NCBI RefSeq assembly: GCF_014199945.1
Contig: NZ_JACHOR010000004.1
Span: 372,001 to 436,000 of the forward strand
Length of the DNA: 64,000 nt
DNA from: Brevundimonas variabilis
GTDB lineage: Bacteria > Pseudomonadota > Alphaproteobacteria > Caulobacterales > Caulobacteraceae
Direction: 5' to 3'
The translations under genes and the position numbers were made by a program. The notes under the pieces are model-generated. The model was not told the origin of the DNA. It saw only the letters and a program-made list of their open reading frames with translations, and did no database searches. This document shows, one piece after another, positions 28,816 through 56,485 of this stretch (the first letter of the stretch is position 1; each line of letters begins with the position of its first letter).

Positions 28816-28824
28816 GGCGACCTC

Positions 28825-32438: not shown

Positions 32439-32616
32439 GGTCCGCTCCGCTGAGAAGGAGGAAGGCTTTGACCAGCGTCAGTCCGATCAGGAGCCCGCCC
32501 AGGCCCTGGGCGAACCGTGTGGGCGAGATCAATTTGACGCCGAGCATCAGGCTCAGGGCCAGGGCCAGGGCCCCGGTAATGCCGCTCACGATCAGACAGT
32601 CGTCGGCCCGGGTCAT
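32431..32616 (-). CDS. small two-segment membrane protein in the virB operon
   Basis: A 61-residue protein (MTRADDCLIVSGITGALALA...) with two hydrophobic stretches and almost no soluble part. It lies between virB2 and virB3, with starts and stops overlapping both, so it is part of the operon and probably made. Size and topology resemble a second pilin-like or VirB3-helper protein. No family is recognised. Confidence 0.65.
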   Translation of the reverse strand: MTRADDCLIVSGITGALALALSLMLGVKLISPTRFAQGLGGLLIGLTLVKAFLLLSGADLG

Positions 32617-35720: not shown

Positions 35721-35864
35721 ATGAGACTTGTGACGTCGAGACTGATTCTCTGCGGCAACATTCGACAGGCGACCCGCGCCAGTGACTTCGGGGACCGGAC
35801 CGAACTGGTCCCGCCCTATGGCTACATCCAGCCGACTGCGCAGCGCGGAGCGTCGCACCGATGA
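35721..35864 (+). CDS. second lasso peptide precursor
   Basis: A 47-residue precursor: leader MRLVTSRLILCGNIRQATR (1-19) with Thr at -2, core starting A20 SDFGDRT E28, then LVPPYGYIQP and a polar tail. Ala1 and Glu9 of the core match both units of the first precursor, as do Gly5 and Leu10. ATG 35721 has GGGAG at good spacing. The stop TGA at 35862-35864 overlaps the start of the B gene (ATGA), so it is translated with the processing enzymes. The 28-residue core is long for a lasso peptide and is probably trimmed. Confidence 0.82.
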   Translation: MRLVTSRLILCGNIRQATRASDFGDRTELVPPYGYIQPTAQRGASHR

Positions 35865-38343: not shown

Positions 38344-40704
38344 GTGCAGGTCTCTGATATTGGCGGGACTGACGAACTCATGGCTCTCTCCGAAATAGGT
38401 GACCAGTTCCGCCTCGCGATTCAGCCGATAGAGGGCCCCGAAGATCGACTCGAAGCGCGACCCATCGAAGTCGCTTTCGATAAGCAGGGTCGGCGTGTGA
38501 ATTCGGTCGACTGCATAAAGCGGGCTGCGTTCGACATAACGGCGTGGGTTCGTCCCCAAAGGCACGCCAAGGCCGCCCTGTCCGCCCTCAAGCCAGCCGC
38601 TCTGGATGGACACGCCCGCCTCTCCGCTCAGACGCGAATGAAGGCGGGGTTCGTAAGCTTCGGTGAGGTCCGCGTAGCCATTGGAGGCGATGATCGCTTT
38701 GAAGCGATCGGTCTGCGTCGCGGCGCGAAGGACGCCGTAGCCGCCGAAGCTGTGGCCGATCAAGGCCGCGCGTGCGGCATCGCACCGGTCGGCCGCGCAG
38801 GCTGTCCGGACGATCGACGCGAGTTCCGGACCGAGGTCGTCCAGATCCAAAGAGGGCGAAGCCTGCTCTGGCAAGCTGGGCATGAGCACAGCGTAGCCGG
38901 CGGCGGAGAGGACCGCCGGGTTGATGTGAAGCTGAAGAGAGCCGGGCAGCAACCGCGCCGGCGGGGCCGAGAAGCTCAGACCTGGATAGGCGATCACCGC
39001 CACGGGTGGCGGGCTGGACGTTGCCTCGGCGGGCAGCAGCAACCAGCTGCGCAGCGGCTGCCCCTCCGAACCCCTGTGGTCGATCGGCACGACAGCCCCC
39101 CAACTGCGGCGATCAAGATCGTCATTGATGGACGCCAGTTCGACCACTCCGGTCTGGGTTCGCAGGCGAACCTGCGTCGCGCCGCCCGGTGAGCGGCGGC
39201 GGGCGACGAAGAATGTCGCGTCAGGGCTTGCCGCGACGACGGTCTCATCTGCGGCGAGGGTGCCGAAGCAGTGAGCCGGACCGCTGGACCGCCGCAGACA
39301 GTCCTGCGCGTCCAGCAGGACAGACTGGCCGAGCCGCTCTGGGGCTGGATTCTCCGTGGCCCTCGCGCCGAGGTCGGTCGCCGTGCCGGCATCGACAAGC
39401 CGGCCCTGAAGGTCGGCGGGAGAGGGCGCTCCTCCGAGAGGCGTCAGCCCCGTCCGTCGGCTGACGAAGGTTGCGTCTTCGAAGCGAACCAGGGCTTCGC
39501 CGTCCTCGACCTGCGCTACGATCCGGCGTCGTCCGTCGCGGTCACTTGTTAGCCAGGCCTTCGAGCCGTCGGCCATGCGAACCTGGAAGACGGGGCGATC
39601 GTCGTCCCAGCTGGCACGCGGTATGGGGATCGTCTGGCTATCGCCGTCGATCCACGGCGTGGTTTCGTTCAGGTCGACCGCCCGCGCGGAGCCGCTTCGA
39701 TCAAGGAGCCAGAACTGCCCGGCCTCGAAGCGGTCCCCGGGCCGTCTCGCAAACACGATCAGTCGGTCCGAGCGCGGCGACCAGGCCATCAGGTGCGACG
39801 CGAAATCCTGATCGGGCAGGGGTTCTACGATCGACCCCGTTTCAAGATCGGCCAGGATGATGCGTCGAACCATTTTGGGCGTTCCGGTGAACAACACCGT
39901 GTCGAGGCCGTACTGGATGTCCGGACCGTCGAGCAGGGCCGCTGCCGTCCGCGCGTCGGGCGACAGCGAGACGTCTATGATCGCACCTTCGGTGAGGATG
40001 GTCTCTCGCCCCGTCGTGAGCTCGACGCGAAGGAGCTGAAGCGGTGTGCCCTTGTCACGGTTGTCGCGTGCCGCGCCGCTCGGTGTGGAAATCGACGACG
40101 GCGCATGCCCGGCTTCGGCCCGCCGCCAGAGTTCGGTCTGCATCACGACCGACTGGGCGTAGACCCCGATAATGTAGGGCAGCGCGCCGTTGCGGCGGGC
40201 GACGACCAGGAGTTCGTTTTCCGAGCGCCAGACGACGGTTTCGCCAAAGCGCGCGAGCTCCGGGGAAAGGTCGAGCCAGCGCACCGTACCGGTGGCCAAG
40301 GTTAAGACCCCCATGCTCCAGCCGCTCTCAGAAAGCCGATAGACGACCATCTGCGCGCCGCTCGGTGAAAACGGCCCCGAGACGAAGCCCGCCGAATGAC
40401 CGGGGTCCTCAAGGGTGTGACGAAGGACGCCATCTGTCGCGGAGAACACCTGCAGCCGGCTCAACACCGTCTCGGTGTAGAAGTCGTATTTGTAGGTGCT
40501 CGCGGTGTTCCACGGTGCCTGTCGCTCCAGGACGATCCAGCGGCTGTCCGTTGAGATGCGAACATTGCCTATGCCTTCATGTCCTACCAGGTCGTCGATC
40601 GTGAAGGGGTGGTTTTGGCTGGGTTGGGCCGACGTCTGACATAGGGTCGGGTTCGCTGCGACCAGAAGGGTCGCTGCGGCCGCAAGGCCGAGGATCGGTT
40701 GCAT
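38212..40704 (-). CDS. lasso peptide isopeptidase (prolyl-oligopeptidase fold)
   Basis: An 830-residue secreted protease with signal peptide MQPILGLAAAATLLVAANPTLCQ. A beta-propeller-like N-terminal domain precedes the alpha/beta hydrolase domain. The triad is Ser in ALIGHSFGGYGVL, Asp in LLIESDFDGSRFE and His in GESHEFVSPANI. Homologues such as AtxE2 hydrolyse the isopeptide bond of lasso peptides, turning the knot into a linear chain. ATG 40704 overlaps the receptor's stop. The gene ends inside the cyclase gene (38212-38343 shared). Confidence 0.92.
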   Translation of the reverse strand: MQPILGLAAAATLLVAANPTLCQTSAQPSQNHPFTIDDLVGHEGIGNVRISTDSRWIVLERQAPWNTASTYKYDFYTETVLSRLQVFSATDGVLRHTLEDPGHSAGFVSGPFSPSGAQMVVYRLSESGWSMGVLTLATGTVRWLDLSPELARFGETVVWRSENELLVVARRNGALPYIIGVYAQSVVMQTELWRRAEAGHAPSSISTPSGAARDNRDKGTPLQLLRVELTTGRETILTEGAIIDVSLSPDARTAAALLDGPDIQYGLDTVLFTGTPKMVRRIILADLETGSIVEPLPDQDFASHLMAWSPRSDRLIVFARRPGDRFEAGQFWLLDRSGSARAVDLNETTPWIDGDSQTIPIPRASWDDDRPVFQVRMADGSKAWLTSDRDGRRRIVAQVEDGEALVRFEDATFVSRRTGLTPLGGAPSPADLQGRLVDAGTATDLGARATENPAPERLGQSVLLDAQDCLRRSSGPAHCFGTLAADETVVAASPDATFFVARRRSPGGATQVRLRTQTGVVELASINDDLDRRSWGAVVPIDHRGSEGQPLRSWLLLPAEATSSPPPVAVIAYPGLSFSAPPARLLPGSLQLHINPAVLSAAGYAVLMPSLPEQASPSLDLDDLGPELASIVRTACAADRCDAARAALIGHSFGGYGVLRAATQTDRFKAIIASNGYADLTEAYEPRLHSRLSGEAGVSIQSGWLEGGQGGLGVPLGTNPRRYVERSPLYAVDRIHTPTLLIESDFDGSRFESIFGALYRLNREAELVTYFGESHEFVSPANIRDLHLRILEWLNRYLGPSHAIEPRLPASRPNLDRTEDQEAVGRGIPD

Positions 40705-43658
40705 CACCAGGCCCGTGTCAGCTGGATGGAGATGAAACGCCCGAGGACATTGGTGTTGGCGGCGTCATAGGCGACGCCCTCAGGGGCGTCATAGAAGGGC
40801 GGATCGGTGTCCAGAAGGTTCTGGACGTTCAGCGTCAGCGTCGTTCCTTCGAGCGGTCCGCGCATCGGCGCATATCGAAGCTGGACGTCCGCAGTCGTCC
40901 ATGAGCCAATCGGACGACCCGTAACGTCCGGATAGCCGTCGACGTAGTTGAGAGCCGCCGAAGCGCCCCAGTCGAGACGGATCCAACTCGCCGATGCACG
41001 CGCCCGCAAGGCGACGGGCAGGTTTGGACTATTGATGCCCGACTGAACCGGCGCGGTCGGGGTCGCCTGCGTATCGAACCGGTCCAGATAGGTCAGGTTG
41101 GCGTCGAGATCGAACGCGTGGTCGTCGATGTCGAAGGCGTAGTCTAGATTGGCGTCGATCCCTTCGAGCAGTACGCTGGAGGTGTTCACAAACCGAGCGT
41201 CGACGATGGCCCCGTAGGCCTCGGCTGGAAACAGATCTGCGAGCGCTGTCGTCGGCAGGTCAAGCAACGCCTGCATGTCGGCGCGGTCCTGCGCATTGTT
41301 GATCGGGTCAATGATGCGAACGAAGGCCGACAGGGCGGGATTGGTGAGGGCGGTGGTCAGGGCCGTGAAGGCCGGCTGACCAATCTGGTTGTCGAAATCG
41401 ATCCGGAACAGATTGAGGCCCATGCGAAGGCCGGGGAGGGCCGCCGGTCGATAGTCTCCGCCAAGCGTCCAGCTCTTGGCCTGTTCGGGCTCAAGGTCGG
41501 GATTGCCGCCGTAGAGGATTTCGGCGAGCACCTGCTGCGATCCGCGCGGAAGAAACGTCGGGCTCTGGTCCGCCGTCTCGTTCAGTTCGCGCAGCGCCGG
41601 AGCGCGGAACGACTCGCCGTAGTTGGCGCGCAGCACGAGTTCGGAATAGGGCTGCCACAGGATCCCGATCTTGGGGCTGGTCGTTTGACCGGCGTCCGAA
41701 TAGTCCTCGAACCGCCCTGCGATCGATAACTCAAGCCTCTCGAATCCTGTGCGACGGTTTGCTGCGCTGAAGAGAGGGATCCGGACCTCCGCGAAAGCGG
41801 ACGCGACCTCGCGGTCGAACGCGACGGGAGCACCGACGGACGGCGACACGCCCGAGGTGAAACTCGTGTCCTGACGCTCAAAGGTCTCGCGGCGGAAGGC
41901 GACCCCCGCGGCCAGTTTGGCATCCCCGGCGGGGAGGGTGAACAAAGACCCGTCCGCCAGGGCGTTGATGGATGAAACCGTCGTCTCGCCTACGCCGCGC
42001 GCCCATCCCGAGCCGATGAAGGCCAGGGCGGCAGGCGAGCTGTTCGAGCCGTCGGCGAACGGGTTGAAATACCCGTCGCGGCGTGCGCTGTAGGCGGTGG
42101 CCGGATTGTCGGCGATAGCGCCGAGCGCCTCGCGCAAGAAGGTGGAGTTGAGCTGGTTGCTACTGCCGTTCTCGCCATGTTCCTGCGCATAGGCGGCGTA
42201 GGTGTCCAGCCGCCAGCTACCAGCAAGATCGATCTTTGCGCCGATCGAGGCACCCAGGCTTTCCGCGCGGCCTCCGATCCTCGGATTGCCGAGATCGCGG
42301 CCGAAATTATAGGCGATGATGTGTGATGTCGCGCCTGTCGGGGAGACAAAATAGGGGTTCGTCGAGGTCACGGTGAAGGTCGTCGGAAAGCCTTGGGACA
42401 CCGCCTCGAACTCGCGCAGGCCATAGCGAACATCGGCGTTGACGGAGACGCGGTCGCCGAGGTCCTGATTGAGAACCAGATAGGCGCTATGCCGCGTTTG
42501 CTCCGGCAGTACGTTGAGGCCCTCGCGGTAATTGTAGAGATTGCCCTGACCGGCCAGGAAGTCGCTCGGTTGGAGGCCAATACCATTCTGGCCACGCGGT
42601 ATGGCGTATGTCGGGACGAAGCCGCCGGCGGCGGCGTTAAAGACGACGATGTTGCCGGGATTACTGAAGATGCGTCGTCGATCGGTGCCGCCGAACCGCC
42701 GCAAGTCGGCGTCGTTCGCCCGGTCCCTCTTGGATGCCGCCAGGCGGCTGCGGTCGTTGTATTCATAGGTGCCGAGGATCGAACCTGATGACCACCGTTG
42801 GCCGACGGTGTGCGCAATCTGGACCTCATCGCTCGCCCCATCCGAGGTCGCGCCGTATCGGACCCGCGTCTCGGCGCCGTCGTAGTCATCCCTCAAAATG
42901 ATGTTGACCACGCCGCCAACGGCGTCCGCTCCGTAAAGAGCCGACGCGCCGTCGAGCAGGACGTCGATGCGGGAGACCGCGCTGGTCGGAATGGTGGACA
43001 CATCAGCGAAATCGCCCTTGTTTCCCGTGCCCGCCATGCGTCGGCCGTTGACCAGTACGAGCGTCGCATCGCTGCCCAGACCGCGCAGATTGACACCCGA
43101 GGCGTAGAAGCTGTTGGTCCCCGTCCGGTCGCCGCCGTTGCTCATGGCCGCATCGTTTCCGGTGCCGCCAAAATTCTGGGGCAGGGCGGCGAGGGCTTGG
43201 GCGACCGTTCCGTGGCCCTGCCGGTCAATATCGTCCCGGGTCACGCTAACGACCGGTGATGGGCCGTCAGCGACGCCGCGGATCAAACTGCCGGTGACGA
43301 TGATCTCATCGAGCTCGATCGCTTCGTCGGCGGTCTCGGCCCGCGCGGTCGGATCGAAGACGACGAGGGTGTTCGGGCGCGTTCGGCGTGCGCGCAGTCC
43401 CGTGCCTTGAAGGAGACCCGCGAGCGCCTGATCGGTCCGCAAGGCTCCGCTAACCCCAGGCGACTGACGGCCGACCACCAGGTCGGTGGAATAGAGGATC
43501 TGTTCGCCACTCTGTGCCGCGAATTGGGGCAAGACGGTTTGCAGCGGACCGGCGGGAACGCGGAACTGGATGGCAGGGGTCTGCGCCTGGACGACGACAG
43601 GTGTCGCCGCCGCGAGAGCAAGCGCCCCGAGCGCAGATGAACAGAGACCGAAACGCAT
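40704..43658 (-). CDS. TonB-dependent receptor with STN domain
   Basis: A 984-residue outer-membrane receptor. A signal peptide (MRFGLCSSALGALALAAATPVVVQAQ) is followed by an STN signalling domain (FRVPAGPLQTVLPQFAAQSG...LLQGTGL), the TonB box region (DEIIVTGSLI), a plug (NLRGLGSDATLVLVNGRRMAG) and a barrel ending in aromatic ISIQLTRAW. ATG 43658 is preferred over GTG 43685 because GGGGA precedes it. The STN domain, with FecR and the sigma factor upstream, indicates ligand-induced expression. The ligand is likely the lasso peptide itself or a metal-bound form. Confidence 0.94.
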   Translation of the reverse strand: MRFGLCSSALGALALAAATPVVVQAQTPAIQFRVPAGPLQTVLPQFAAQSGEQILYSTDLVVGRQSPGVSGALRTDQALAGLLQGTGLRARRTRPNTLVVFDPTARAETADEAIELDEIIVTGSLIRGVADGPSPVVSVTRDDIDRQGHGTVAQALAALPQNFGGTGNDAAMSNGGDRTGTNSFYASGVNLRGLGSDATLVLVNGRRMAGTGNKGDFADVSTIPTSAVSRIDVLLDGASALYGADAVGGVVNIILRDDYDGAETRVRYGATSDGASDEVQIAHTVGQRWSSGSILGTYEYNDRSRLAASKRDRANDADLRRFGGTDRRRIFSNPGNIVVFNAAAGGFVPTYAIPRGQNGIGLQPSDFLAGQGNLYNYREGLNVLPEQTRHSAYLVLNQDLGDRVSVNADVRYGLREFEAVSQGFPTTFTVTSTNPYFVSPTGATSHIIAYNFGRDLGNPRIGGRAESLGASIGAKIDLAGSWRLDTYAAYAQEHGENGSSNQLNSTFLREALGAIADNPATAYSARRDGYFNPFADGSNSSPAALAFIGSGWARGVGETTVSSINALADGSLFTLPAGDAKLAAGVAFRRETFERQDTSFTSGVSPSVGAPVAFDREVASAFAEVRIPLFSAANRRTGFERLELSIAGRFEDYSDAGQTTSPKIGILWQPYSELVLRANYGESFRAPALRELNETADQSPTFLPRGSQQVLAEILYGGNPDLEPEQAKSWTLGGDYRPAALPGLRMGLNLFRIDFDNQIGQPAFTALTTALTNPALSAFVRIIDPINNAQDRADMQALLDLPTTALADLFPAEAYGAIVDARFVNTSSVLLEGIDANLDYAFDIDDHAFDLDANLTYLDRFDTQATPTAPVQSGINSPNLPVALRARASASWIRLDWGASAALNYVDGYPDVTGRPIGSWTTADVQLRYAPMRGPLEGTTLTLNVQNLLDTDPPFYDAPEGVAYDAANTNVLGRFISIQLTRAW

Positions 43659-43728
43659 AAAAATCCCCGAAATGGATATCCGCACAGGCGCGGGTCAGGG
43701 AAGAGACGAAGAGGCGCGGCAAAACCCC

Positions 43729-44724
43729 TCAGCGCACGGCCGGATTTTTTGCTGACGCATCACGAAGAACGATCTGTCCGGCAGGCGTCCGCTCGGCAAC
43801 GACGGGATAGAGTTCAGTGAGCGCGGAGACAAAAGCCTCGACATCGCCCGTGTTGAACGCCCCGCTGACGGCAATGCGGGAGATGGCGGGCGCTTCGAGA
43901 ACAACCTTGGTGCGGCTGTAGCGGTTCACCTCGGCGACGGCTGCTTCGACCGTGTCACCGGCGAAAATCAGGCGACCGGATGTCCAACTCGTCTCTGACG
44001 CGACATCCACCGAGCGGACGGCGGGACGAGGCGAGGTCGTGACGATCTGCTGGCCCGGCGTGAGGGACCACCCTTGAGTGACCGCCGAAGGGTCGCTCAC
44101 TTCGACCTTACCCTCGACGAGAGTCACCTGAGCGCCGTCTCCCGCGCGACGTACGTCGAACCGGGTGCCCACCGCGATGACGTCGGTCGCCCCCGCGCTG
44201 ACGACGAACGGGCGAGCAGGATCGCCCTGAACCTCGAAGAAGGCCTGACCACTGGCCAGTTCAACGGCGCGCCGCCCGCGGGTCAGCTTCACGCTGATCC
44301 TGGAGTCGGTGTCCAGCGTGACCCGCGACCCCTCTGCCAGGACCACAACCCGGCGCTCTCCTAAACTCGTCTCATAAGACTGCGGCCGAGCGGACCACAC
44401 GGCGACGCCGACCACGATGGCGGCGATCGTCGCTAAGGCCCCCATGGGAACGAGACTTTTAGCTAAACGACCCTGGGATCGACGCGACGCGTCCGCGCGC
44501 GCGCGCGCGTCTTGCGTCAAGGCGGCGATATCGGCGTCCCCCCTGAGGCTGCCCGCCGTCTCCCACATCGTCTCGATACGCGCAAAAGCCTCGGCATTCT
44601 CGGGTCTGCGGCGCCATTGGCTGAAGGCTGTGACGTCCGAAGCCGCCACCCGCTTCTGGTTAAGGGTCGCGAACCATGAAGCGGCCTCGCGGCGTCTTGC
44701 GTCTAGGTCTTTATCGGCAGTCAT
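43729..44724 (-). CDS. FecR-type anti-sigma regulator
   Basis: A 331-residue inner-membrane protein. An N-terminal DUF4880 part (REAASWFATLNQKRVAASDVTAFSQWRRRPENAEAFARIE) binds the sigma factor. One membrane segment (about 95-115, LVPMGALATIAAIVVGVAVW) precedes the FecR periplasmic domain (GERRVVVLAEGSRVTLDTDSRI, GQAFFEVQGDPARPFVVSAG). ATG 44724 lies ten bases after the sigma gene. It passes the receptor's binding signal to the sigma factor. Confidence 0.93.
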   Translation of the reverse strand: MTADKDLDARRREAASWFATLNQKRVAASDVTAFSQWRRRPENAEAFARIETMWETAGSLRGDADIAALTQDARARADASRRSQGRLAKSLVPMGALATIAAIVVGVAVWSARPQSYETSLGERRVVVLAEGSRVTLDTDSRISVKLTRGRRAVELASGQAFFEVQGDPARPFVVSAGATDVIAVGTRFDVRRAGDGAQVTLVEGKVEVSDPSAVTQGWSLTPGQQIVTTSPRPAVRSVDVASETSWTSGRLIFAGDTVEAAVAEVNRYSRTKVVLEAPAISRIAVSGAFNTGDVEAFVSALTELYPVVAERTPAGQIVLRDASAKNPAVR

Positions 44725-44734
44725 TGTTCGTGCC

Positions 44735-45226
44735 TTAGACGTCCAGTTGCGACATGCAGTGTTCAACAGCCTTGGCCATACGTCGTTCGACTGTAGCCAA
44801 GCTGATCCCGTGAGCCAGAGCAATCTCAGGGTATGTCATACCGTCAAACCTGCTCAAGACGAAGACGTCCCTGTAGAGGGGCGGCATTGTCTGCAAGATC
44901 TGCTTGATATGGAGGCGATCGAAAGGCGCGTCAGCGGCCGTGCCCACAATCGGACGCGCACCTTGCAACGCCCGATCATGCCGTACCAGGCGGCGCCGCT
45001 CATCGCGGACGAGGTTGAGCGCGACCCGGAGCAGCAGCGCCTTGGGATGTCGGATATCCTGAAGGAGATACGGGGCGAGGCGTAGATAAGTCTCCTGCAC
45101 GACGTCGTCGGCCTCGTCGGCACCCACTCGCCCGCGAAGCCGCTTTACCAGCCATCCCGAATAGCGTCGGTAGAGCCCATTGAGGCTCGCCGCTGCGCCC
45201 GGATCCAACTCCTTCACATCGCCCAA
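44735..45226 (-). CDS. ECF sigma factor, FecI-like
   Basis: A sigma factor with region 2 (NGLYRRYSGWLVKRLRGRVGADEADDVVQETYLRLAPYL) and region 4 (LPPLYRDVFVLSRFDGMTYPEIALAHGISLATVERRMAKAVEH in form, with MPP at its start). A TTG at 45226 has GGAGG six bases before it and gives 163 residues; a GTG at 45292 would give 185. It should transcribe the receptor, isopeptidase and perhaps the lasso genes when FecR releases it. It is the first gene of the minus-strand uptake operon. Confidence 0.88.
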   Translation of the reverse strand: MGDVKELDPGAAASLNGLYRRYSGWLVKRLRGRVGADEADDVVQETYLRLAPYLLQDIRHPKALLLRVALNLVRDERRRLVRHDRALQGARPIVGTAADAPFDRLHIKQILQTMPPLYRDVFVLSRFDGMTYPEIALAHGISLATVERRMAKAVEHCMSQLDV

Positions 45227-47214: not shown

Positions 47215-49323
47215 TCATGGTGCTGGTCGTTCAACTCGGGCGACAGCACCCTCAGCTACCCTCAGGATGACATCTGCAGCCTCCACCAGGGCCGGGCGGT
47301 GGGCGACAACAACGCGGGTCAGCGCCATATCGGAGACGCTCTGTACGATCCGATGCTCCGTCGCAGGATCAAGGTTGGCTGTGCCTTCATCGAGGAGCAG
47401 GAATTTCGGGTTTCGGTAAAGCGCGCGGGCTAGGAGCACACGCTGGTACTGGCCGGCCGAAAGGGTCGAGCCCATGTCCCCCACCATCGTCTGGTAGGCC
47501 ATCGGCATGTCCATGATCGCTTCGTGAATGTCGGCGAGACGCCCGACCTCGGCTAGTCGGTCCGGATCGACCTCGGCCGCAAAGAAGCTGATGTTCTCCG
47601 CTAACGTACCGGTGAAGAGCTTGTCGTTTTGAAGCACCACCCCAAGGCTTGCACGCCAGTTCCTGAGGGTGCTTCCCTTCAAGGGCCTGCCGTTGACAAA
47701 GATCTCGCCCGAGGTGGGTTCGAGGAGACCGAGCATGAGGCGGGCGAGCGTCGATTTGCCGGTACCGGACGGCCCGACGATTGCGACGAAAGAGCCAGGT
47801 TCGATTGATAGCGAGACCTTCCGGAGAAGCCAGGGATCGGTATCGCCATATCGGAACGAGACATCGACAAGCTCGATCTTCGGGTATGAGGCGACCTCCG
47901 CCGCCTGCTCTGCCGTGGGTGCCGATGCCGGGTCCAGCGGATGGTGGATGATGTCGCCGAGGCGATCCAGATGTAGACGGATAAGACGAAACTGCATCAG
48001 TTGCACGATCAACCGCGCTACGCTCTGGGCGAACGACTGGCGATAGGCGAGGACTGCGGCGAACATGCCGACCGTCAAGTCCCCTGATATCACTCCTGTC
48101 GCCAGAATGTAGATGACCGCGATGAGCTGAAACGCTCCAATGGCGTCGTTGACCGCGGTCATTGCGATCTGCGATCTGCCGACACCGAGATTGGCGTTGA
48201 CTAGCCTCAAATAACGATTGCGCCATTTGGAGAGACGCATGCTCTCCTGGCCGAACATCTTGATGACGTTAGCCGCGCGGATAGATTCCATCAGATGGGA
48301 CTGCTCTTCGGCTGCTGTGGCCAAAGACTGCTCCTGCCCGCTGCGGATAACTGAAGCGAACATCTGGTTGCTGAGAGCAAGAGCCAGCACCGAGCCAGCC
48401 GCGACCAGTCCAATACGCACGTCGTAGGCGAAGAGGACCGCCAACGTGACCAAACCCAGGACGCCATCGAGCAGGGACTGGATCGCTCCATCGGTTATTG
48501 TGGACTGGATCGTCTTGATCGACAGCATCCGAGAGATGATGTCGCCCACGCTTCGACGCTCGAAGTAGTAGGCCGGTAGCGCCATTAGGCGCTCGAAAGT
48601 CCGCCCGACCAAAGAGTAGTTGATGAGGTTGGTGAAGTAGAGTGTGATCCAAGACCGGATGGCCGTAGTTGACAGCGTTACTAGCACCACGAACAGCGAT
48701 GCGAGCGAGAGCGAGAGAACGATATCGCTGTTGCGGGCGATGCTGGATTCGTCGATGATGATCTGCATCAGCAGCGGCGGAAGTAGCGATAGCAACTGGA
48801 TCGCGAGGGAAAGCACGAGAAGTTTCGGAAGAGCCCGACGAAAAATGGAGAAGTCGCCCAATGCCTCAACGAGAGTGACAAGTTTGGTTGATCGCGTTCG
48901 CAGGAAGTCTTCGCGCGGACCGACCTCCAAGGCGACACCAGTGAAATGCCGGGACAGTTCCTCCTTGCTCACGACACGCGCGCCGTTCGCGGGATCGTGG
49001 ATTGTGACGGAAGTCTTTCCGACCGACTTGAGCACAACGAAATGGTTCATGTCCCAATGCAGGACCGCGGGCAGCGCCAGTCGGCCCAATGCATCCAAAT
49101 CCAGACGAACCGGCCTAGCCGACAGATTCATACGGTCTGCAAAATTGATCAGATCCGAAAGCCGCGCACCGGAGAGCGAAACCGAGAACCGCCGCCGAAG
49201 AATGGAGAGATCCGTCTCGTTGCCGTGATACCAGGAAATCATTGCCATACAGGCAAGCCCGCACTCGGCAGCGCCGACTTGGTGGATGACCGGGAGACGG
49301 CCTCGAGTTGGAAACATGTTCAT
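47215..49323 (-). CDS. C39-peptidase ABC exporter for double-glycine RiPP leaders
   Basis: A 702-residue exporter with three parts. The C39 peptidase (1-140) has the catalytic Cys in VGAAECGLACMAMI, His in HWDMNHFVVLKS and Asp in TIHDPANGARV. A six-segment membrane domain (about 165-440) follows. The ATPase has Walker A VGPSGTGKSTLARLM, signature LSAGQYQRVLLARAL, Walker B KFLLLDEGTANLD. It should cut the precursor after its GG motif during export. ATG 49323 lies three bases after the HlyD stop. The gene is the last of the minus-strand export operon. Confidence 0.93.
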   Translation of the reverse strand: MNMFPTRGRLPVIHQVGAAECGLACMAMISWYHGNETDLSILRRRFSVSLSGARLSDLINFADRMNLSARPVRLDLDALGRLALPAVLHWDMNHFVVLKSVGKTSVTIHDPANGARVVSKEELSRHFTGVALEVGPREDFLRTRSTKLVTLVEALGDFSIFRRALPKLLVLSLAIQLLSLLPPLLMQIIIDESSIARNSDIVLSLSLASLFVVLVTLSTTAIRSWITLYFTNLINYSLVGRTFERLMALPAYYFERRSVGDIISRMLSIKTIQSTITDGAIQSLLDGVLGLVTLAVLFAYDVRIGLVAAGSVLALALSNQMFASVIRSGQEQSLATAAEEQSHLMESIRAANVIKMFGQESMRLSKWRNRYLRLVNANLGVGRSQIAMTAVNDAIGAFQLIAVIYILATGVISGDLTVGMFAAVLAYRQSFAQSVARLIVQLMQFRLIRLHLDRLGDIIHHPLDPASAPTAEQAAEVASYPKIELVDVSFRYGDTDPWLLRKVSLSIEPGSFVAIVGPSGTGKSTLARLMLGLLEPTSGEIFVNGRPLKGSTLRNWRASLGVVLQNDKLFTGTLAENISFFAAEVDPDRLAEVGRLADIHEAIMDMPMAYQTMVGDMGSTLSAGQYQRVLLARALYRNPKFLLLDEGTANLDPATEHRIVQSVSDMALTRVVVAHRPALVEAADVILRVAEGAVARVERPAP

Positions 49324-49326
49324 GTC

Positions 49327-50607
49327 CTACTCGGCCCTCTGCTGGGGGCGGAACGACCCCAAGGCCAGCCCAAGAAGCGTCCGCTCTCGCACCAATAACA
49401 GGCCCCGTACGGTCATTCCCGATCGCAGACTCATCGGTCGGTCGTGCGCCGGGCTCGTGATCATCACCGTCACGCGGTATGCTGGCTCCGTTAGAGCAGT
49501 CGGCGTGAGGATGTCGCCGGGGCGTAGGGGTGTCGCCGACAGTCCCACGACGCGTCCCTCAAGCACGCCGAATTCCCTCGAAGGGTAGGCCGCGACCTGC
49601 AGTCGGACTAGGTGCCCCTCCGAAAGTCTCGCGATCTCGGTTTGCCGCGCCAAAAGAATGGCGGTGAACCCTTGGCCATCGCCTTGTATGGTGAAGAGCG
49701 AGCTGCCCGGAACGACCCGATCGCCCGGCGCGACGTTCAACGTCGCCACCCGGCCGGCAATCGTCGCTCGGACGATGGATTCGGTGTCGGATCGACGCCG
49801 GTCCATATCCACTTCGACGTTGGCGATGGACTGTTCGATCGCGCTGCGCTGGGACTGTCTGCGGGCGGTTGCGCTCCGCTGCCTCGCGCGCTGCTCGCTG
49901 CGCAAACTCTCAAGATCGGCAATCGCCTGCTCCCCGGACTCCAGAGCCTGCAGCGCTGCGATGACAGCCTCCTCGCGGCGGCTCAGTTCGGCTCTCGAAC
50001 CGAATCCCCGATCGACAAGGGTGCTAAACTGATCGCGCTGCTCTTCGGTATAGGAGAGCCGCTGGCGCAGGTATTCCACCTGTCGCCTTTGGCTCGTCGT
50101 GTTCCTATCGATCCGCGCGGCAGCCGCACGCGCCTCGTCCGCGTCAGCGGCTTCCTGCGTGTTGACGTCATTCAACTGCGCGAGAAGTCGTGAGCGTTGG
50201 TCGTCGAGGCCCTTCATAAGCACTGGGCCTAGATCGCCGGTCTCATCGACGCTGCGATCGGTGGCGACCGCTATCACGGCCTGCCCTGCCGAGACGCGTG
50301 TCCCTTCGCCTGAGAGGATACGCGCAACCGTGCCGGCGGAGGCGGTTTCGTTTCTGACCTCACCTCCGGCCGGAACCAGCCATCCTTCGAGAGCGAATGT
50401 CTCGGTGAAACGTATGAACGCGGCCGCCAGCAACCCACCGACGAACACGACGACAAGCAAGATCAAATACAGTCGCGCCCCGGGTGGGGAAGCCCCGACC
50501 GCAGGCCCGAACGCGTCAGCTCTGGCGGCTGCGACTTCGGGTCGGAACAGGGGTCCAGCACCTGCTCGCGTGGCCGAGCTATCCTTGCTCTCGGTCGGCT
50601 CGGTCAC
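49327..50607 (-). CDS. HlyD-family membrane fusion protein
   Basis: A 426-residue adaptor linking the exporter to an outer-membrane channel. One membrane segment (LYLILLVVVFVGGLLAAAFI, about 47-66) is followed by a lipoyl-like half (EGWLVPAGGEVRNETASAGTVARIL). A long coiled coil (about 130-285) and a beta-barrel domain (VATLNVAPGDRVVPGSSLFTI) come next. GTG 50607 is the likely start. No TolC gene is nearby, so a chromosomal TolC is probably used. Confidence 0.9.
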   Translation of the reverse strand: MTEPTESKDSSATRAGAGPLFRPEVAAARADAFGPAVGASPPGARLYLILLVVVFVGGLLAAAFIRFTETFALEGWLVPAGGEVRNETASAGTVARILSGEGTRVSAGQAVIAVATDRSVDETGDLGPVLMKGLDDQRSRLLAQLNDVNTQEAADADEARAAAARIDRNTTSQRRQVEYLRQRLSYTEEQRDQFSTLVDRGFGSRAELSRREEAVIAALQALESGEQAIADLESLRSEQRARQRSATARRQSQRSAIEQSIANVEVDMDRRRSDTESIVRATIAGRVATLNVAPGDRVVPGSSLFTIQGDGQGFTAILLARQTEIARLSEGHLVRLQVAAYPSREFGVLEGRVVGLSATPLRPGDILTPTALTEPAYRVTVMITSPAHDRPMSLRSGMTVRGLLLVRERTLLGLALGSFRPQQRAE

Positions 50608-50644
50608 GACGATGTGCTCGCACAGGCGCTACATTGAGCAAGCA

Positions 50645-51115
50645 TCATCCGGCATCGCGCGCCCCGGGAGGCCTCGGCGCGAGCGAAGATTCGCTTGCGA
50701 GAAAGGTGTCGATCAGCCTGATTATCTCCACCGTTTCCGCTGGGTCGAAGCCGACGACCGATTCCGCAACCACGCCGTCATGGACGAACTGCACAGTCGG
50801 ATAGCGTCGAACGCCAGCACGTCGATGATCGGACCGGCGAGACGCATGCCCCTGGCTCAGGTGAGACACACGGAGAGCCGCCTGTGCGGATGGGGGCAGG
50901 TGGTTCGCAAAGATCGATTTGAGGAGATCGCAAGGAGCGCATCTGTCTGTCGTGAAGACAACGACCAGCCGCCCTGACACCGCGTCGGGATAGTCACCGT
51001 TAATGCCTTCGATCAAACCGATCCCCCCCCTGCCTAATGATCGGAACCTCCCGACCTGATGTCTGAAGTTTGCCGGATCGAAAGCTACGTTGGCAAGTTC
51101 AGCACTAAATCTCAA
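50645..51115 (-). CDS. thioredoxin-like protein with CAPC motif
   Basis: A protein of up to 156 residues with a thioredoxin fold: VVVFTTDRCAPCDLLKSIF holds the redox pair C-A-P-C, and GVRRYPTVQFVHDGVVAES the cis-proline loop. It may form or reshuffle the two-cysteine bond of the RiPP core. The start is uncertain: TTG 51115 has no ribosome binding site, and a later TTG follows a run of eight G (51023-51030 on the plus strand as C). No signal peptide is seen. It is the first gene of the export operon and is divergent from the precursor gene. Confidence 0.75.
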   Translation of the reverse strand: MRFSAELANVAFDPANFRHQVGRFRSLGRGGIGLIEGINGDYPDAVSGRLVVVFTTDRCAPCDLLKSIFANHLPPSAQAALRVSHLSQGHASRRSDHRRAGVRRYPTVQFVHDGVVAESVVGFDPAETVEIIRLIDTFLASESSLAPRPPGARDAG

Positions 51116-51183
51116 CCGCCGTTACCACTTGACCGCGCACGATGAATGTGTTCGTTGGACATGGTTTTCACCAGGGGTTTAAG

Positions 51184-51426
51184 ATGGCTGTTTCCAAAAA
51201 TGACTTTCTAAAACTGATTGAATCTTTCAGGTCTGGACGAGACGCTGGCGTCGATGCTGGCCTCCGGATCGACACTCTTTCGCCGGAGCAGGTCGCCCAG
51301 GTGTCGGGCGGCAGCGGTGGCCCCAACTTCCCTGATCGGTCGGGCAGTTGCCCCTATCCGGACGGCTATACTTTCTACGAGTGTATTCACCCGTTTAGCG
51401 ATGCTCCGCAGCAACCAGAAGTCTGA
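51184..51426 (+). CDS. radical SAM-modified RiPP precursor, double-glycine leader
   Basis: An 80-residue precursor. The leader (1-43) has MAVSKNDFLKLIESF and ends LSPEQVAQVSGG, a double-glycine site for the C39 exporter. The core (44-80) carries four aromatic-X-acidic triplets: F49-P-D51, Y58-P-D60, F64-Y-E66 and F71-S-D73. It also has two cysteines, C56 and C67. Such triplets are the substrate pattern of cyclophane-forming (triceptide) maturases, and FYE matches the XYE motif. ATG 51184 is chosen over 51142 because AGGGG (51173-51177) stands before it. The maturase follows at 51531. Confidence 0.88.
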   Translation: MAVSKNDFLKLIESFRSGRDAGVDAGLRIDTLSPEQVAQVSGGSGGPNFPDRSGSCPYPDGYTFYECIHPFSDAPQQPEV

Positions 51427-51454
51427 TGGTGTCCTAAGTTCTTTGTCGGCTATA

Positions 51455-51491
51455 CCATGGCGCCTGCAACACGCGGTTGCGGGCGCCATGG
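51455..51491 (+). terminator. strong hairpin between precursor and maturase genes
   Basis: Arms at 51455-51470 and 51476-51491 pair over 16 bases with one mismatch that becomes a G-U or A-C pair, around a 5-base loop. It lies 29 bases after the precursor stop. There is no U-tract. It probably lowers read-through or protects the precursor message, so that much more precursor than enzyme is made. Confidence 0.65.
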
Positions 51492-51530
51492 TCTTCCTCG
51501 TAAGCCAAGCTGAGCTGAAAGTTTAGGTCC

Positions 51531-52763
51531 GTGGAACTTCGCCTTGCCGATAATGCGTCGTTGGAGATCGTCTACAAGATCCAAGAGACCTGCAATATCG
51601 ATTGCTCCTACTGCTATATGTACAATGTCGGTAACACGCTGTTCAAGAGCGTGCCGCCATCAAGTCCTTTAGATGTGGTCGAGAGCGTCGCGAACTTCAT
51701 TTGCGATGCGTTCGAGGACTGGAATCCGTCCAGAGTCAGTCTGATTATACACGGCGGAGAGCCGATGCTAATGCCGGCCCACCAGTTCGCCGCGCGGATG
51801 GAGTTAATCGGGGCCGTTCTCGACCGTCGCCTCACGCCAGATCAGCGGGACCGTGTCGAATTCTCGATCCAAACTAACGGAACTCTCGTTACCGAGGCGT
51901 GGATCGCGTTGCTAGCGCGCTGGAAGATCCTTGTCGGGATCACCGTTGACGGCCGGGAAGCCGTCCATGACCGGCGTCGTGTCGACAAAAAGGGGCGCGG
52001 GTCCTACCAAGCCACGATCCGCGGTCTTGAACTACTCCGCACTGCCGCGCGCGAGGGCCGCATTTCTAAGCCAGGTGGTCTGTGCGTGATCGATCCGACG
52101 GCGTCTGGGGGTGAGACCTACGATCACCTCGTCAACGATCTTGGCTTCGACAACATAAACTTCCTGTTCCCGTTCATGAACTGGTCCAACTACGCGGAGG
52201 AGGACGTCGAAGGTGCCAGTCGCTTCCTTCTGGACGCACTCGATCGTTGGATGAAAGGCCGAGCAGCGGGGCAAACCGTACATGTCCGCGTCTTTACCGA
52301 CGCACTAAGGGCCATGCATGGGTTCGGGCGCGGGGTCTATCAGCGCACTCCCGGGCAACGAATTGAACTTGGCCATCAGGTGACCATCGTCGAAAGCGAT
52401 GGGACGATCATGCCAGAGGAAAGCCTACGGCCGACATTTGAACATCGGTTCGCCGACCTCCATGTAGCATCCGATCGTGCCCGTGACATCGTGTCTGATC
52501 CGCGATTCGGAGACCTCGTCCGAGCGGATCTCACCCGGTCGACGGAATGCGCGGGGTGCGTTCTGATCGACGTCTGCGAGAGCGGTCATGCGCTGGGGCG
52601 CGTTGGCATGCGCTTCGTAATGGACGGCGACTTTTCAAGAAAGAGCGTATATTGCGGGGCTTACGCCGGTTTGTTCGCTGGTCTGGCTCACTTCATGAGC
52701 CAGTCAGGTGTGGGTGTTGAAGACATTTTGACGGGAGAGCGGCGACATGTCTTCGCTGCCTAG
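51531..52763 (+). CDS. radical SAM/SPASM RiPP maturase
   Basis: A 410-residue enzyme. The radical SAM cluster motif is CNIDCSYCYMY (C17, C21, C24), with LIIHGGEPML and SIQTNGTLV for SAM binding. The C-terminal SPASM-type region carries CAGCVLIDVCESGHALG and the late VYCGAY cysteine, which hold auxiliary clusters. This arrangement is shared with XyeB/GrrM/FxsB-type maturases that install carbon-carbon cross-links on precursor side chains. GTG 51531 is the start. It ends 17 bases inside the TraB-like gene. Confidence 0.92.
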   Translation: MELRLADNASLEIVYKIQETCNIDCSYCYMYNVGNTLFKSVPPSSPLDVVESVANFICDAFEDWNPSRVSLIIHGGEPMLMPAHQFAARMELIGAVLDRRLTPDQRDRVEFSIQTNGTLVTEAWIALLARWKILVGITVDGREAVHDRRRVDKKGRGSYQATIRGLELLRTAAREGRISKPGGLCVIDPTASGGETYDHLVNDLGFDNINFLFPFMNWSNYAEEDVEGASRFLLDALDRWMKGRAAGQTVHVRVFTDALRAMHGFGRGVYQRTPGQRIELGHQVTIVESDGTIMPEESLRPTFEHRFADLHVASDRARDIVSDPRFGDLVRADLTRSTECAGCVLIDVCESGHALGRVGMRFVMDGDFSRKSVYCGAYAGLFAGLAHFMSQSGVGVEDILTGERRHVFAA

Positions 52764-53664
52764 TAACAGGTTGAAGTTCGGCGCGTTGGCCATCGGACTA
52801 GCGATTGTGTCACACTTCGCGTTGCCAGATGAGGCGCGAGCATCTCCAAACGACGCGCAGGTTATTGTGGAGCTTTGCGAGAAAATGGTGCTGGACTCGG
52901 GGGGGTTTGTGGCTGAGGCCGATCAGGCTTGGAACGTTGACCTTGTCTTGCCTAACGGCGGCGCTCTTTACTATATGGGGACTACGCACCCGAGCGATGC
53001 TTCCTCGCTGGAGTATGACGAGATCATTGCCGCTTACAGACGGTTCGATCCGACGGCCGTGTTCTTTGAGGGCTGCTGCGAAGTCCGGACGAAAAGCGAG
53101 GCAGATGCCCGCGCGATTCATGAGACGGCTCTGGTTCAGTTCCTCGCCAAGCTTGACGGCGTCGCGCCGATCTCGCTGGAGCCTTCGGACATCTCTCTGC
53201 GCCTGGCTCTGCTCGCGGAGTATTCGGCGCTGGACGTGCAGTTGTTCTACCTTCTCCGAGATATTGCCCAAGAGCGCGAGCGTCGTGACGCCCAAGGGGA
53301 GGTCCTGCGCCGCCGAGCCCAATGGTATCTCGATAAACTGCTCGACATGCCTGGCCCTCTTCCGGACTGGCCGCTGAAATCGCTGGAAGACGTCGACAAC
53401 GCGGTTCAGGTCCGATGGCCAAGTGCCAGTTGGCAAACCATTCCCCTCAACTGGTTCACGCCGTATGTGAACTCGGATTCGGCTGGTCCGCTGCTCTTCC
53501 ACCAAATCAATCGACTTGAGAACAAGTACAGGAACGCCACCATGTATCGCCACCTGGCATCAGCTGCGTTGCGTGGCGAACGGGTCTTCGCAGCAGTGGG
53601 AAGAAGTCACGTCGCGCTGCAGGCCGACGCCTTACAGTGTGCTTTGGGCAACCAAGTCGGTTGA
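52747..53664 (+). CDS. TraB/GumN-like protein
   Basis: A 305-residue protein with a hydrophobic N-terminal segment (FGALAIGLAIVSHFALPDEARA), a likely signal peptide. The TraB/GumN pattern is GALYYMGTTHPSD (first histidine), AVFFEGCCEV (glutamate) and FAAVGRSHVALQADAL (second histidine), possible metal ligands. Some TraB-family members are proposed metalloproteases. It could process or protect against the peptide in the periplasm. ATG 52747 lies inside the maturase gene, so the two are coupled. The role in this pathway is unknown. Confidence 0.78.
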   Translation: MSSLPSNRLKFGALAIGLAIVSHFALPDEARASPNDAQVIVELCEKMVLDSGGFVAEADQAWNVDLVLPNGGALYYMGTTHPSDASSLEYDEIIAAYRRFDPTAVFFEGCCEVRTKSEADARAIHETALVQFLAKLDGVAPISLEPSDISLRLALLAEYSALDVQLFYLLRDIAQERERRDAQGEVLRRRAQWYLDKLLDMPGPLPDWPLKSLEDVDNAVQVRWPSASWQTIPLNWFTPYVNSDSAGPLLFHQINRLENKYRNATMYRHLASAALRGERVFAAVGRSHVALQADALQCALGNQVG

Positions 53665-54494
53665 TTGCCGCAGAGGGATGCGCGCCCGGCATACCGCTTC
53701 ATCTGCCCGCCGCCGCCTTAGGCGGCGTTTTCCGCTCCCTTGCAGTACGCACCTCTGGCGGTTTGGGATATCGGGACGGTGCGTTCATCGCCGACTTCGC
53801 GAATGCGGAACCATGGTCGTCGGACGCGTACCTCGCGCGGTGTGAGGGCAACGGACCGTTCGCGGCGCTGTTTCCAGTCGATCGCAAGGCCATCGGGGTA
53901 TTGTGTGAACAGGCCGACCTACTGGCGCAAGGGCATACGGAACGCGTAGATCCGAACGTCTGCAGCAACGCTCTGTTGAATGCGCTGCCGGCGCATATCG
54001 CTTCCGCCGACTGCGAGCACGTCGGCTTTGCGCGAAATCCACCAGGATTGCCGACCGTCAGCCGTGCAGGTCGTCACAGTGGAGAATTTCTGGGACTGCA
54101 TCTCGACGACTGGTCCGGTGCCGAGGCCGGGGCGAGGAATTTAGCTCGCGGTCGCGTCTCCGTGAACCTAGGATCCGAGCCCCGTCGCTTTCTGATCTGT
54201 CCTATACCCTTCACCCACATCTACGCCTGGCACATAGCGGCTGGCGGCGCGCCGGATCTGAGGCCCTATTCACGGATCGGTATCGACTATCTTACTGCCC
54301 ATCCCTGGACTGAGATTCTGCTAATGACGGTGCCGCCCGGCTGGGCCTATCTCGCGCCGACTGAAAACGTTCTTCACGATGCGAGCACCGCCGGGATGCT
54401 TTGCGAAGACATCACTTACGTCATCCAGGCTCGGTTTTCGCTCCACGCCGAGGCGGAACGGAGACCGACAGACATGCGGAGAGCAGGCGCGTGA
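53661..54494 (+). CDS. putative 2OG-Fe(II)-type oxygenase or cupin-like tailoring protein
   Basis: A 277-residue protein not firmly recognised. GEFLGLHLDDWSG gives an H-x-D pair as in iron- and 2-oxoglutarate-dependent oxygenases. It is followed by ARGRVSVNLGSEPRRFLICPIPF and THIYAWHIAAGG, a jelly-roll-like run of strands with more histidines. TTG 53661 overlapping the TraB-like stop (TTGA) is one start; GTG 53637 is another. It is the last gene of the precursor operon and overlaps the convergent GT9 gene by 74 bases. Hydroxylation of the peptide is a plausible role (inference). Confidence 0.55.
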   Translation: MIAAEGCAPGIPLHLPAAALGGVFRSLAVRTSGGLGYRDGAFIADFANAEPWSSDAYLARCEGNGPFAALFPVDRKAIGVLCEQADLLAQGHTERVDPNVCSNALLNALPAHIASADCEHVGFARNPPGLPTVSRAGRHSGEFLGLHLDDWSGAEAGARNLARGRVSVNLGSEPRRFLICPIPFTHIYAWHIAAGGAPDLRPYSRIGIDYLTAHPWTEILLMTVPPGWAYLAPTENVLHDASTAGMLCEDITYVIQARFSLHAEAERRPTDMRRAGA

Positions 54495-55338
54495 ACTGAC
54501 CGGTCAGGTCCGTCTCGACAAGCAGATTGACGCGATGAGGGGTGAGGCAGAGGCCGAACCTGTCGTGGTTCGGGTGCCGGAACACTCCCACCGAAGGTAT
54601 TTGCTGCAAATCCGCTAAATGAAGGAAAGACGAGTCGACTCCCGCGAAAAACGTCGCCCCGGCAACAATCTCGCAGGATGCGCCGAAGTCGAACGGCGCA
54701 TGGGCAATCTGAGAGCCCGCACCGCCCAGCGGGCCCCTCAAAGCCGGATCGCGACCAACCACGACCGGATGGAGGTCCGGGCGATGCTCCGACAAGGCGG
54801 ATACCAGCGCCGTCCAGACATCATCGTCGAGCCTCTTTGCCTCTGCAGTGTCCACATGCAGAACATAGTATCCCAGACCTTTTAAACGCCCATCTCTAGG
54901 GAGTTCCACGAGCGGATGGCAGTGATCCGCGAACGCAAGTTCCATATCGATGTTGCGGGCGATCTCGAAATATCGCTGCGTGTAATGCCCAGTCTTCGAG
55001 ACGCTTCGGGAAACTTCCGCGATAAGCCCCGTGGTGAATCCTCGATCGTTGACAGTTGAAATCCATTCAGCCAGAGCGCCTGACGTCCATGACGTGAAGA
55101 CCGCGAGTCGCTCCGGACACCCGGCGCGTTGATCGAGATCCCTCCAGTCGAACTCTAGGCCCGATCTGGGAGCAATCCTGATCCGTCGGTCAAAGCCTGT
55201 GAAGATGTAATCGTAGGCCGGATGATGCGGCAGTATCAGTGTAGCTTCCGGCATTGCGCGCAGCGTGGCGCGCATGCCGGGCAAAGCCATCAAAGCATCG
55301 CCGAAACCATTGGCAAAAAAGATTGCGTCGTTGCTCAT
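54421..55338 (-). CDS. GT9-like (heptosyltransferase-type) glycosyltransferase
   Basis: A 305-residue protein with the two-domain pattern of family 9 glycosyltransferases. The N-terminus is AIFFANGFGDALMALPGMRATLR, with a G-F-G-D loop. The C-terminal sugar-nucleotide site is FFAGVDSSFLHLADLQQIPSVGVFR. It converges on the oxygenase-like gene with a 74-base overlap. It may glycosylate the RiPP or a cell-surface target that gives self-protection. No lipopolysaccharide genes adjoin. ATG 55338 is clear. Confidence 0.75.
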   Translation of the reverse strand: MSNDAIFFANGFGDALMALPGMRATLRAMPEATLILPHHPAYDYIFTGFDRRIRIAPRSGLEFDWRDLDQRAGCPERLAVFTSWTSGALAEWISTVNDRGFTTGLIAEVSRSVSKTGHYTQRYFEIARNIDMELAFADHCHPLVELPRDGRLKGLGYYVLHVDTAEAKRLDDDVWTALVSALSEHRPDLHPVVVGRDPALRGPLGGAGSQIAHAPFDFGASCEIVAGATFFAGVDSSFLHLADLQQIPSVGVFRHPNHDRFGLCLTPHRVNLLVETDLTGQFTRLLSACLSVSVPPRRGAKTEPG

Positions 55339-55902: not shown

Positions 55903-56169
55903 TCAAATCGCGGCATGTCGTTCGTCCCGTGGCTTGGCGGCGCGGATCTGACCCTTGGGCCCGCCAGTCGAGTTTTGCAGACCGAGATCGGCCCAAGCTT
56001 CCAGATCGTGCACTGCATAGATCACCCGACCTCCGATCTTTCGGTAGGTCGGTCCAGTTCCGTAGGTGCGGTGTTTTTCTAAGGTTCGCCCTGACAGGCC
56101 CAAAAAGTGGCCTGCTTCGGGCGTCCTCAGAAAGCGAGAGCGTGAAGGGGAGTCAGTTGAGTTTTCCAT
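55903..56169 (-). CDS. AlpA/excisionase-like HTH protein
   Basis: An 88-residue protein with a MerR-like winged helix of the AlpA type: FLRTPEAGHFLGLSGRTLEKHRTYGTGPTYRKIGGRVIYAVHDLEAWAD. Such proteins act as excision factors or regulators of integrases. ATG 56169 (MENSTDSPSR) is preferred; GTG 56179-56181 is possible. It lies 240 bases from the tRNA 3' end, the expected place for a recombination directionality factor at the end of an element. No integrase gene is seen in the window. Confidence 0.85.
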   Translation of the reverse strand: MENSTDSPSRSRFLRTPEAGHFLGLSGRTLEKHRTYGTGPTYRKIGGRVIYAVHDLEAWADLGLQNSTGGPKGQIRAAKPRDERHAAI

Positions 56170-56314
56170 GTGCGCAGCCACCAGAGGTCTCCGTTCCGGA
56201 ACCGAGGGGCGTAAGCTTGAGCGGCGGTGTCATCTGCGACCACTCGCGAACGTACGGTCGTAAGTGTGCGGGGATCGCGATGGCCAGATCGTCCAACGAT
56301 TTCCCGTTAGTCCA

Positions 56315-56347
56315 CCGTCCTAAATACCGTCCTAATCGCCGTCCTAA
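56315..56347. repeat. three 9-bp direct repeats near the attachment site
   Basis: CCGTCCTAA occurs at 56315-56323, 56327-56335 and 56339-56347, a spacing of exactly 12 bases. It lies 63-95 bases from the tRNA-Lys 3' end and upstream of the AlpA-like gene. The pattern suits arm-type sites for an integrase or the excisionase. Confidence 0.65.
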
Positions 56348-56409
56348 AAAAGGCCCGACGCTTGCATTCGCTCAGTATGGCTAAATATGCTGTGATATCA
56401 ATGAAACGA

Positions 56410-56485
<76 letters not shown>

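Follow-up and report, generated by a model that had tools for sequence, protein, structure and literature searches.

A probable triceptide-like peptide locus of Brevundimonas variabilis and the recurring company of its putative oxygenase and GT9-like genes

Positions 47215 to 55338 of a 64,000-nucleotide stretch of the Brevundimonas variabilis genome (contig NZ_JACHOR010000004.1, 372,001 to 436,000 of the forward strand; hereafter the window) hold eight genes that include a short peptide precursor and a radical S-adenosylmethionine (SAM)/SPASM maturase, and raise the question of what peptide they make and whether a putative oxygenase, here called OX, and a GT9-like glycosyltransferase at one end take part in making it. 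Our best overall explanation, which we consider probable though well short of secure, is a locus for a triceptide-like ribosomally synthesized and post-translationally modified peptide (RiPP), whose product would be cross-linked, probably disulfide-bonded, hydroxylated and possibly glycosylated. All eight open reading frames (ORFs) lie where the first-pass annotation, a reading of the letters made without database searches, had placed them, and its account of gene content and coordinates is confirmed:

47215-49323, minus strand: C39 peptidase-containing ATP-binding cassette (ABC) exporter (PF03412 119.8 bits, PF00005, PF00664)
49327-50607, minus strand: HlyD-type membrane-fusion adaptor (PF13437 5.9e-10; TIGR01843 72 bits, under its cut-off of 208.65)
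50645-51115, minus strand: thioredoxin-like protein with C-A-P-C (PF00085 23.0 bits, just under the cut-off of 23.5)
51116-51183: gap between the divergent exporter and precursor operons (gene layout), presumed to contain the promoters of both
51184-51426, plus strand: precursor of 80 residues with a GG leader (from ATG 51184, the start also given by database entry P0001)
51531-52763, plus strand: radical SAM/SPASM maturase (TIGR04496, NF041707 and TIGR04269 matches below cut-off; clade support 1.0)
52747-53664, plus strand: TraB/Tiki-like protein with a hydrophobic N-terminus (PF01963 14.7 bits, below cut-off; H-E-H spacing)
53637 or 53661 to 54494, plus strand: OX, an H-x-D protein and putative non-heme Fe(II)/2-oxoglutarate-type oxygenase (H147-x-D149 and H239, P0079 numbering)
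54421-55338, minus strand: GT9-like glycosyltransferase (PF01075 20.9 bits, cut-off 22)

The thioredoxin-like, adaptor and exporter genes form the minus-strand group left of the gap, and the precursor, maturase, TraB-like and OX genes the plus-strand group right of it, with the GT9-like gene running convergently into OX over a 74-nt overlap.

The precursor bears the double-glycine leader and the two core cysteines that the first-pass annotation had read in it. Its leader, LSPEQVAQVSGG, ends in GG, with V at both -4 and -7 and an L at -12, matching the C39 peptidase domain of the neighbouring exporter; an excerpt of PMC10885120 underlines the positions -4, -7 and -12 in leaders of C39 substrates, where hydrophobic residues stand. 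The core, SGGPNFPDRSGSCPYPDGYTFYECIHPFSDAPQQPEV, contains four aromatic-x-acidic triplets, FPD from F49, YPD from Y58, FYE from F64 and FSD from F71, together with Cys 56 and Cys 67. This number exceeds chance (mean 0.77, p = 0.0008, in 100,000 shuffles of the 37-residue core with the last leader Gly), and an adjacent precursor with aromatic-x-x triplets, here four of the F/Y-x-D/E form, is one of the marks of triceptide loci. A search of 5.8 billion proteins, in which three candidates were scored, returned one relative besides the precursor itself, P0002, which is 76% identical; the search was not exhaustive, the more distant precursor of Caulobacter radicis described below being absent from its matches. 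Both cysteines and three triplets are kept in P0002 (3 observed, p = 0.009), where FDQ replaces FSD, and of the four triplets claimed earlier, all present in the window core, only three are conserved in this close relative. P0002 belongs to a second cluster that is partly seen, together with P0004 (the closest maturase, 82%) and P0080 (the closest OX, 55%); the three very probably lie on one contig, because the longest contig given for each has 63,595 bases.

The maturase scores best against three cyclophane-forming families, XyeB (TIGR04496, 237.6 bits, cut-off 450), YhhB (NF041707, 187.5, cut-off 445) and FxsB (TIGR04269, 161.8, cut-off 370), followed by the anaerobic sulfatase maturase model (122.0, cut-off 349.45), and reaches 93.2 bits against GrrM (TIGR04261, cut-off 310). 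It falls below the cut-off of every named NCBIfam family by a wide margin and is not a member of XyeB, YhhB, FxsB or GrrM; in a FastTree tree of 92 sequences it stands beside the first three in a clade of its own (support 1.0) with 41 members, 40 of them distinct since one duplicates the C. radicis protein, most of which came from a search listing 74 proteins out of 8000 scored candidates. Its cysteines, three at 21/25/28 in the CX3CX2C motif and four at 340/343/349/375, are common to XyeB, YhhB and FxsB and make up the motif and C-terminal set of a triceptide maturase. Searching the PDB with its sequence brought up ChlB (95.4 bits), sulfatase maturases and a further pair of radical SAM enzymes. 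Scores in the range of the clade were confined to the window's genome and one other, G387 (589.5 and 603.5 bits; next 323.5), in a scan at the levels of family (390 genomes), class (385) and phylum (398), overlapping sets with at most four candidates scored per genome. Viral contigs bear eight more maturase loci (L135 to L142), and in L135, which was searched with the locus proteins, the maturase was the sole match. According to an excerpt of PMC11002830, the bond made by YxdB runs from C3 of Tyr to the beta carbon of Asp, and XncB, OscB and MscB attach Trp or Phe to that of Arg, Asn, Asp or Ser. The earlier claim of a cyclophane-type maturase finds support in the three best profiles and in the Tyr-x-Asp precedent of YxdB, the nearest reported chemistry to the YPD of the window; by analogy with these enzymes, cyclophanes very likely form on the precursor.

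A related locus (L006) was found in Caulobacter radicis, contig NZ_QDKO01000030.1, a species that we take to belong to the Caulobacteraceae. It is laid out as in the window, with a C39 exporter and an HlyD adaptor divergent from a precursor, a maturase (44% identical) and a third gene. Its precursor resembles that of the window chiefly in the leader (BLASTP E 5e-4 in a single comparison), and the core has YDD, YTD, FNE and YED and no cysteine. Looking for relatives of the precursor and its neighbourhood, as the first-pass annotation had advised, has yielded P0002 and this locus, in whose 16-kb stretch no relative of the thioredoxin-like, OX or GT9-like protein was found. As the C. radicis locus lacks both the cysteines and the thioredoxin-like gene, this single case agrees with a part for that gene in disulfide formation, and we propose that the thioredoxin-like protein serves the two core cysteines. 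Fic-domain proteins are encoded in two of the related maturase loci, at 12103-12852 in C. radicis, after the TraB-like gene, and at 2748-3590 in L107, after the exporter.

OX belongs to a family that is unrecognised by Pfam, NCBIfam and PHROGs. Its H-x-D...H motif, the metal triad of Fe(II)/2-oxoglutarate oxygenases, is invariant in 15/15 and 13/13 aligned proteins (overlapping sets), and its AlphaFold2 model, of middling quality, resembles this group of oxygenases; in our judgement OX is probably an iron oxygenase with the peptide as its substrate. Members occur in 9 of 79 loci, 3' of the maturase and on the same strand, and adjoin cyclophane-type maturases both in other bacteria and in the window's own family, where they were found in two genomes out of 388, one of these being that of the window. 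The hosts beyond that family belong to Bacteroidota and Cyanobacteria. An OX gene directly follows grrM in Nostoc, another is present in L098, and two viral contigs (L133 and L134) have OX and a GrrM maturase joined in a single gene. The OX profile was built from five members, whose own matches to it are trivial; a single-sequence search with OX among 150 relatives matched the window alone.

Several occurrences of OX deserve a separate record. The fused gene of L134 (IMGVR_UViG_3300030098_006389, 4296-6474) encodes one protein of 678 residues that consists of a GrrM/OscB cyclophane maturase and an OX domain; a small ORF rich in W/F-x-N lies just 5' of it, and its neighbours include phage genes resembling Sak4 and DnaD, together with weaker matches to endolysin and tail genes. 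L133 has an ORF matching this fusion. In Kordia (L039, 11236-14772), four different OX-family genes follow a single maturase consecutively, perhaps one per site. OX adjoins cyclophane-type maturases and a large protein in four Mucilaginibacter loci (L016, L037, L046, L048), the Lant_dehydr_N domain of the large protein having been scanned in L016 and the others being alike by eye; a hybrid of cyclophane and dehydrated peptide is a possible product there. On plasmids, an OX relative of Methylocystis parvus (L121, 5626-6639) sits amid genes for a TonB receptor and iron uptake, the stretch examined containing no maturase, and another is found on the Streptomyces plasmid H28.

The GT9-like protein carries the C-terminal signature of GT9 (PF01075) at 20.9 bits, and the glycosyltransferase label given to it earlier stays just under the gathering cut-off of 22, which its relative in L080 passes (29.3). 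Among 8,710 ORFs of 122 sequences, relatives outside the window's genome were limited to L080, L076 and L078 (E ~1e-13), in each of which the gene adjoins OX, 3' of the maturase; GT9-like genes are present in 3 of the 79 loci, 3/3 with OX. L076 and L078, both Oscillatoria-type, are apparently close copies, and we therefore count two independent lineages in addition to the window. In the whole genomes of these three loci the GT9-like gene was the sole significant match (E 8e-8, 9e-12 and 9e-12), the lowest E otherwise obtained across the six genomes or records being 0.0626, and in 61 genomes including the window's own the best match outside the window reached 15.5 bits (E 0.007). Plasmid searches gave no match for the GT9-like proteins, the TraB-like proteins or the whole locus, and the PDB sequence search with the GT9-like protein gave one meaningless match. 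Because OX and GT9-like genes both recur beside cyclophane-type maturases elsewhere, we regard them as belonging to the locus; the first-pass annotation had listed them as unfamiliar additions, and the pair is indeed part of the locus, yet not unique to it. Maturase, OX and GT9-like gene are a recurring cassette. That OX and the GT9-like protein form a mobile two-gene tailoring cassette, present in three phyla with different cyclophane-type maturases and hydroxylating and then glycosylating cyclophane peptides, is a tentative proposal that we hold with some reserve, and whether the peptide of the window is glycosylated seems to us a nearly balanced matter, leaning slightly to the negative.

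From the gene content, the clade of the maturase, the conserved motifs and the co-occurrence, all of them observed, we infer the reactions and the order of steps as follows. Guided by the leader, the maturase would bond the aromatic residue of the F/Y-x-D/E triplets with the acidic residue at the latter's beta carbon, at F49PD, Y58PD and F64YE and less certainly at F71SD, giving three or four small cyclophanes. OX would then hydroxylate the core, most likely at or beside a cyclophane, and the GT9-like protein may transfer a sugar or a similar group to the new hydroxyl, roles that are suggested by the recurrence of the two as a pair. The C39 exporter would cleave after GG and export the peptide with the HlyD adaptor, and a disulfide would close between the two cysteines that flank the stretch from YPD to FYE, with the help of the thioredoxin-like protein; we find formation of this disulfide rather likely. 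The secreted TraB/Tiki-like protein would either trim the exported peptide or destroy it at the producer's side.

The maturase might instead make thioether links at the two cysteines, as in ranthipeptides or sactipeptides, leaving the aromatic triplets incidental, an outcome that the first-pass annotation had itself set against its reading. Both cysteines are conserved in P0002, and the model of the ranthipeptide maturase PapB matches at 86.2 bits (cut-off 340), near the scores of GrrM, AmcB and DynA; the three best cyclophane models, however, score 1.9 to 2.8 times as high, and thioether chemistry is disfavoured for the clade because the C. radicis precursor, associated with a maturase of the same clade, has no cysteine at all. 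We consider it very improbable. In the C. radicis core, the triplets are not significantly more numerous than expected (4 vs 2.5, p = 0.20 by permutation). With a cross-linked core granted, OX could be a dehydrogenase, epimerase or cyclase of the 2-oxoglutarate fold, or a docking protein, and no core hydroxylase: the fold matches listed include SnoN, an epimerase, SnoK, a carbocyclase, and WelO5, a halogenase by its Pfam title, and the fold thus leaves the reaction unfixed. A purely structural protein would hardly keep its putative iron ligands invariant in all 13 aligned proteins, and hydroxylation of the core is the role that we prefer, these others being unlikely, if not strikingly so.

For the product of 52747-53664, fold and function both admit other readings. 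The TraB/GumN-like label of the first-pass annotation stays weak and draws on motifs and spacing, the H, E, RN and GxxH motifs (GTTH, FFEG, RN and GRSH in the window) appearing in the same order in the third gene of C. radicis, with H-E / E-H spacings of 27/180 and 27/181, which is the order and spacing of the Tiki/TraB superfamily; an excerpt of PMC6254334 gives His-85 and Glu-113, a spacing of 28, for Bcr135 of the Ere family in the Tiki superfamily. The fold itself is confirmed neither by model nor by profile comparison: PF01963 gives 14.7 bits (gathering cut-off 26.8), the window protein has no BLASTP similarity to the C. radicis one (E 0.46), profile comparison with the true TraB of the same genome has a probability of 0.7% (few sequences, low power), and the AlphaFold2 model is unusable (predicted local distance difference test score 43). 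A protein without the TraB/Tiki fold nevertheless strikes us as rather improbable in view of the ordered motifs. The PDB sequence search returned nothing, and the profile built from the two TraB-like proteins themselves has trivial matches. Because of the H-E-H motifs and spacing, and of other peptidases in XyeB-like loci, the protein may be a periplasmic peptidase, a reading that, judged from sequence, we hold at even chances. An aspartyl peptidase gene directly follows xyeB in Xenorhabdus bovienii (L110), an S9 peptidase and an M61 peptidase directly follow the maturase in L107 and L106, and weak M61/M1 matches stand at the exporter end in L100 and L103; in all, 5 of 9 neighbour proteins, chosen by eye from eight XyeB-like loci, have a peptidase match, two of them weak, and there was none in L111, L109 and two of L010. 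Such an enzyme could also be purely protective, destroying the peptide near the producer and taking no part in maturation, as proposed for PrgY, a membrane peptidase that in an excerpt of PMC7117660 is thought to degrade the cell's own pheromone after export. The unrelated secreted-type peptidases of L110, L107 and L106 fit trimming at least equally well, though some of the other scanned loci had none, and a solely protective role appears doubtful to us, though by no means far-fetched.

Among known systems, Xye/Xnc has the closest profile and, in X. bovienii, a similar order of precursor, adjacent radical SAM/SPASM maturase, peptidase gene, HlyD adaptor and C39-type exporter. The XncB motifs, in the excerpt of PMC11002830, combine Trp/Phe with Arg or Asn, whereas those of the window are aromatic-x-acidic; the window maturase reaches 237.6 bits against a cut-off of 450, OX, GT9-like and thioredoxin-like genes are extra, and a TraB-like gene replaces that of the aspartyl protease. 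YhhA/YhhB/YhhC of a Vibrio plasmid, in which YhhC is a 2-oxoglutarate-Fe(II) oxygenase, resembles the window in pairing a cyclophane-type maturase with a neighbouring, in the window putative, oxygenase, but the maturase score is 187.5 against 445, YhhC matches PF13640 and OX does not, and hhalign gives YhhC and OX a probability of 0.15% (one YhhC sequence only, low power). GrrM/OscB systems have OX after grrM in Nostoc or fused to it in L133 and L134, while the window maturase itself stays at 93.2 bits where GrrM requires 310. With Tiki/TraB/PrgY/EreA the TraB-like protein shares the H-E-H order and spacing but not a score above the Pfam cut-off, and with GT9 the last protein shares the C-terminal signature (20.9 bits), the best match beyond the window in the 61 genomes staying at 15.5 bits.

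We regard the basic system as a variant of the triceptide kind, and the OX family, its pairing with the GT9-like protein and the fused gene of the viral contigs as the new parts. No report of these three was found in the literature searched, where the core triceptide papers are known to us via a review and a prior mention is possible. To our knowledge, far less is known of the fate of cyclophanes after their formation than of the maturases that form them. What connects the OX family with cyclophane-type maturases is adjacency in several phyla and gene fusion on viral contigs; in three lineages OX also has a GT9-like partner. If the pair does hydroxylate and glycosylate cyclophanes, decorated ring peptides of a new class, glycosylated triceptides involving an oxygenase family so far unrecognised, could be searched for by means of it, and peptide engineering would gain two ready enzymes.

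The locus has a second RiPP-type cluster next door, at 35861-44823 of the window, with Transglut_core3, asparagine synthase and S9 peptidase matches (Pfam); we take this to be of the lasso-peptide type, and by eye it presumably also includes a TonB receptor and a FecR-like regulator. Farther left, at 13151-18991 and 22190-33559, lie genes that we take, by eye, to resemble the Dnd set for phosphorothioation and a conjugation system of the VirB/VirD4 kind; they suggest that an integrative element carries the RiPP loci. An excisionase-like gene (phrog_66; HTH_17 just below cut-off) lies beside tRNA-Lys at 55903-56485; no repeat of the tRNA-Lys 3' end of at least 13 nt was found in the window, which consequently shows no att site. 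The guanine-plus-cytosine fraction is 0.55-0.64 across 46-57 kb vs 0.63-0.69 in the flanks.

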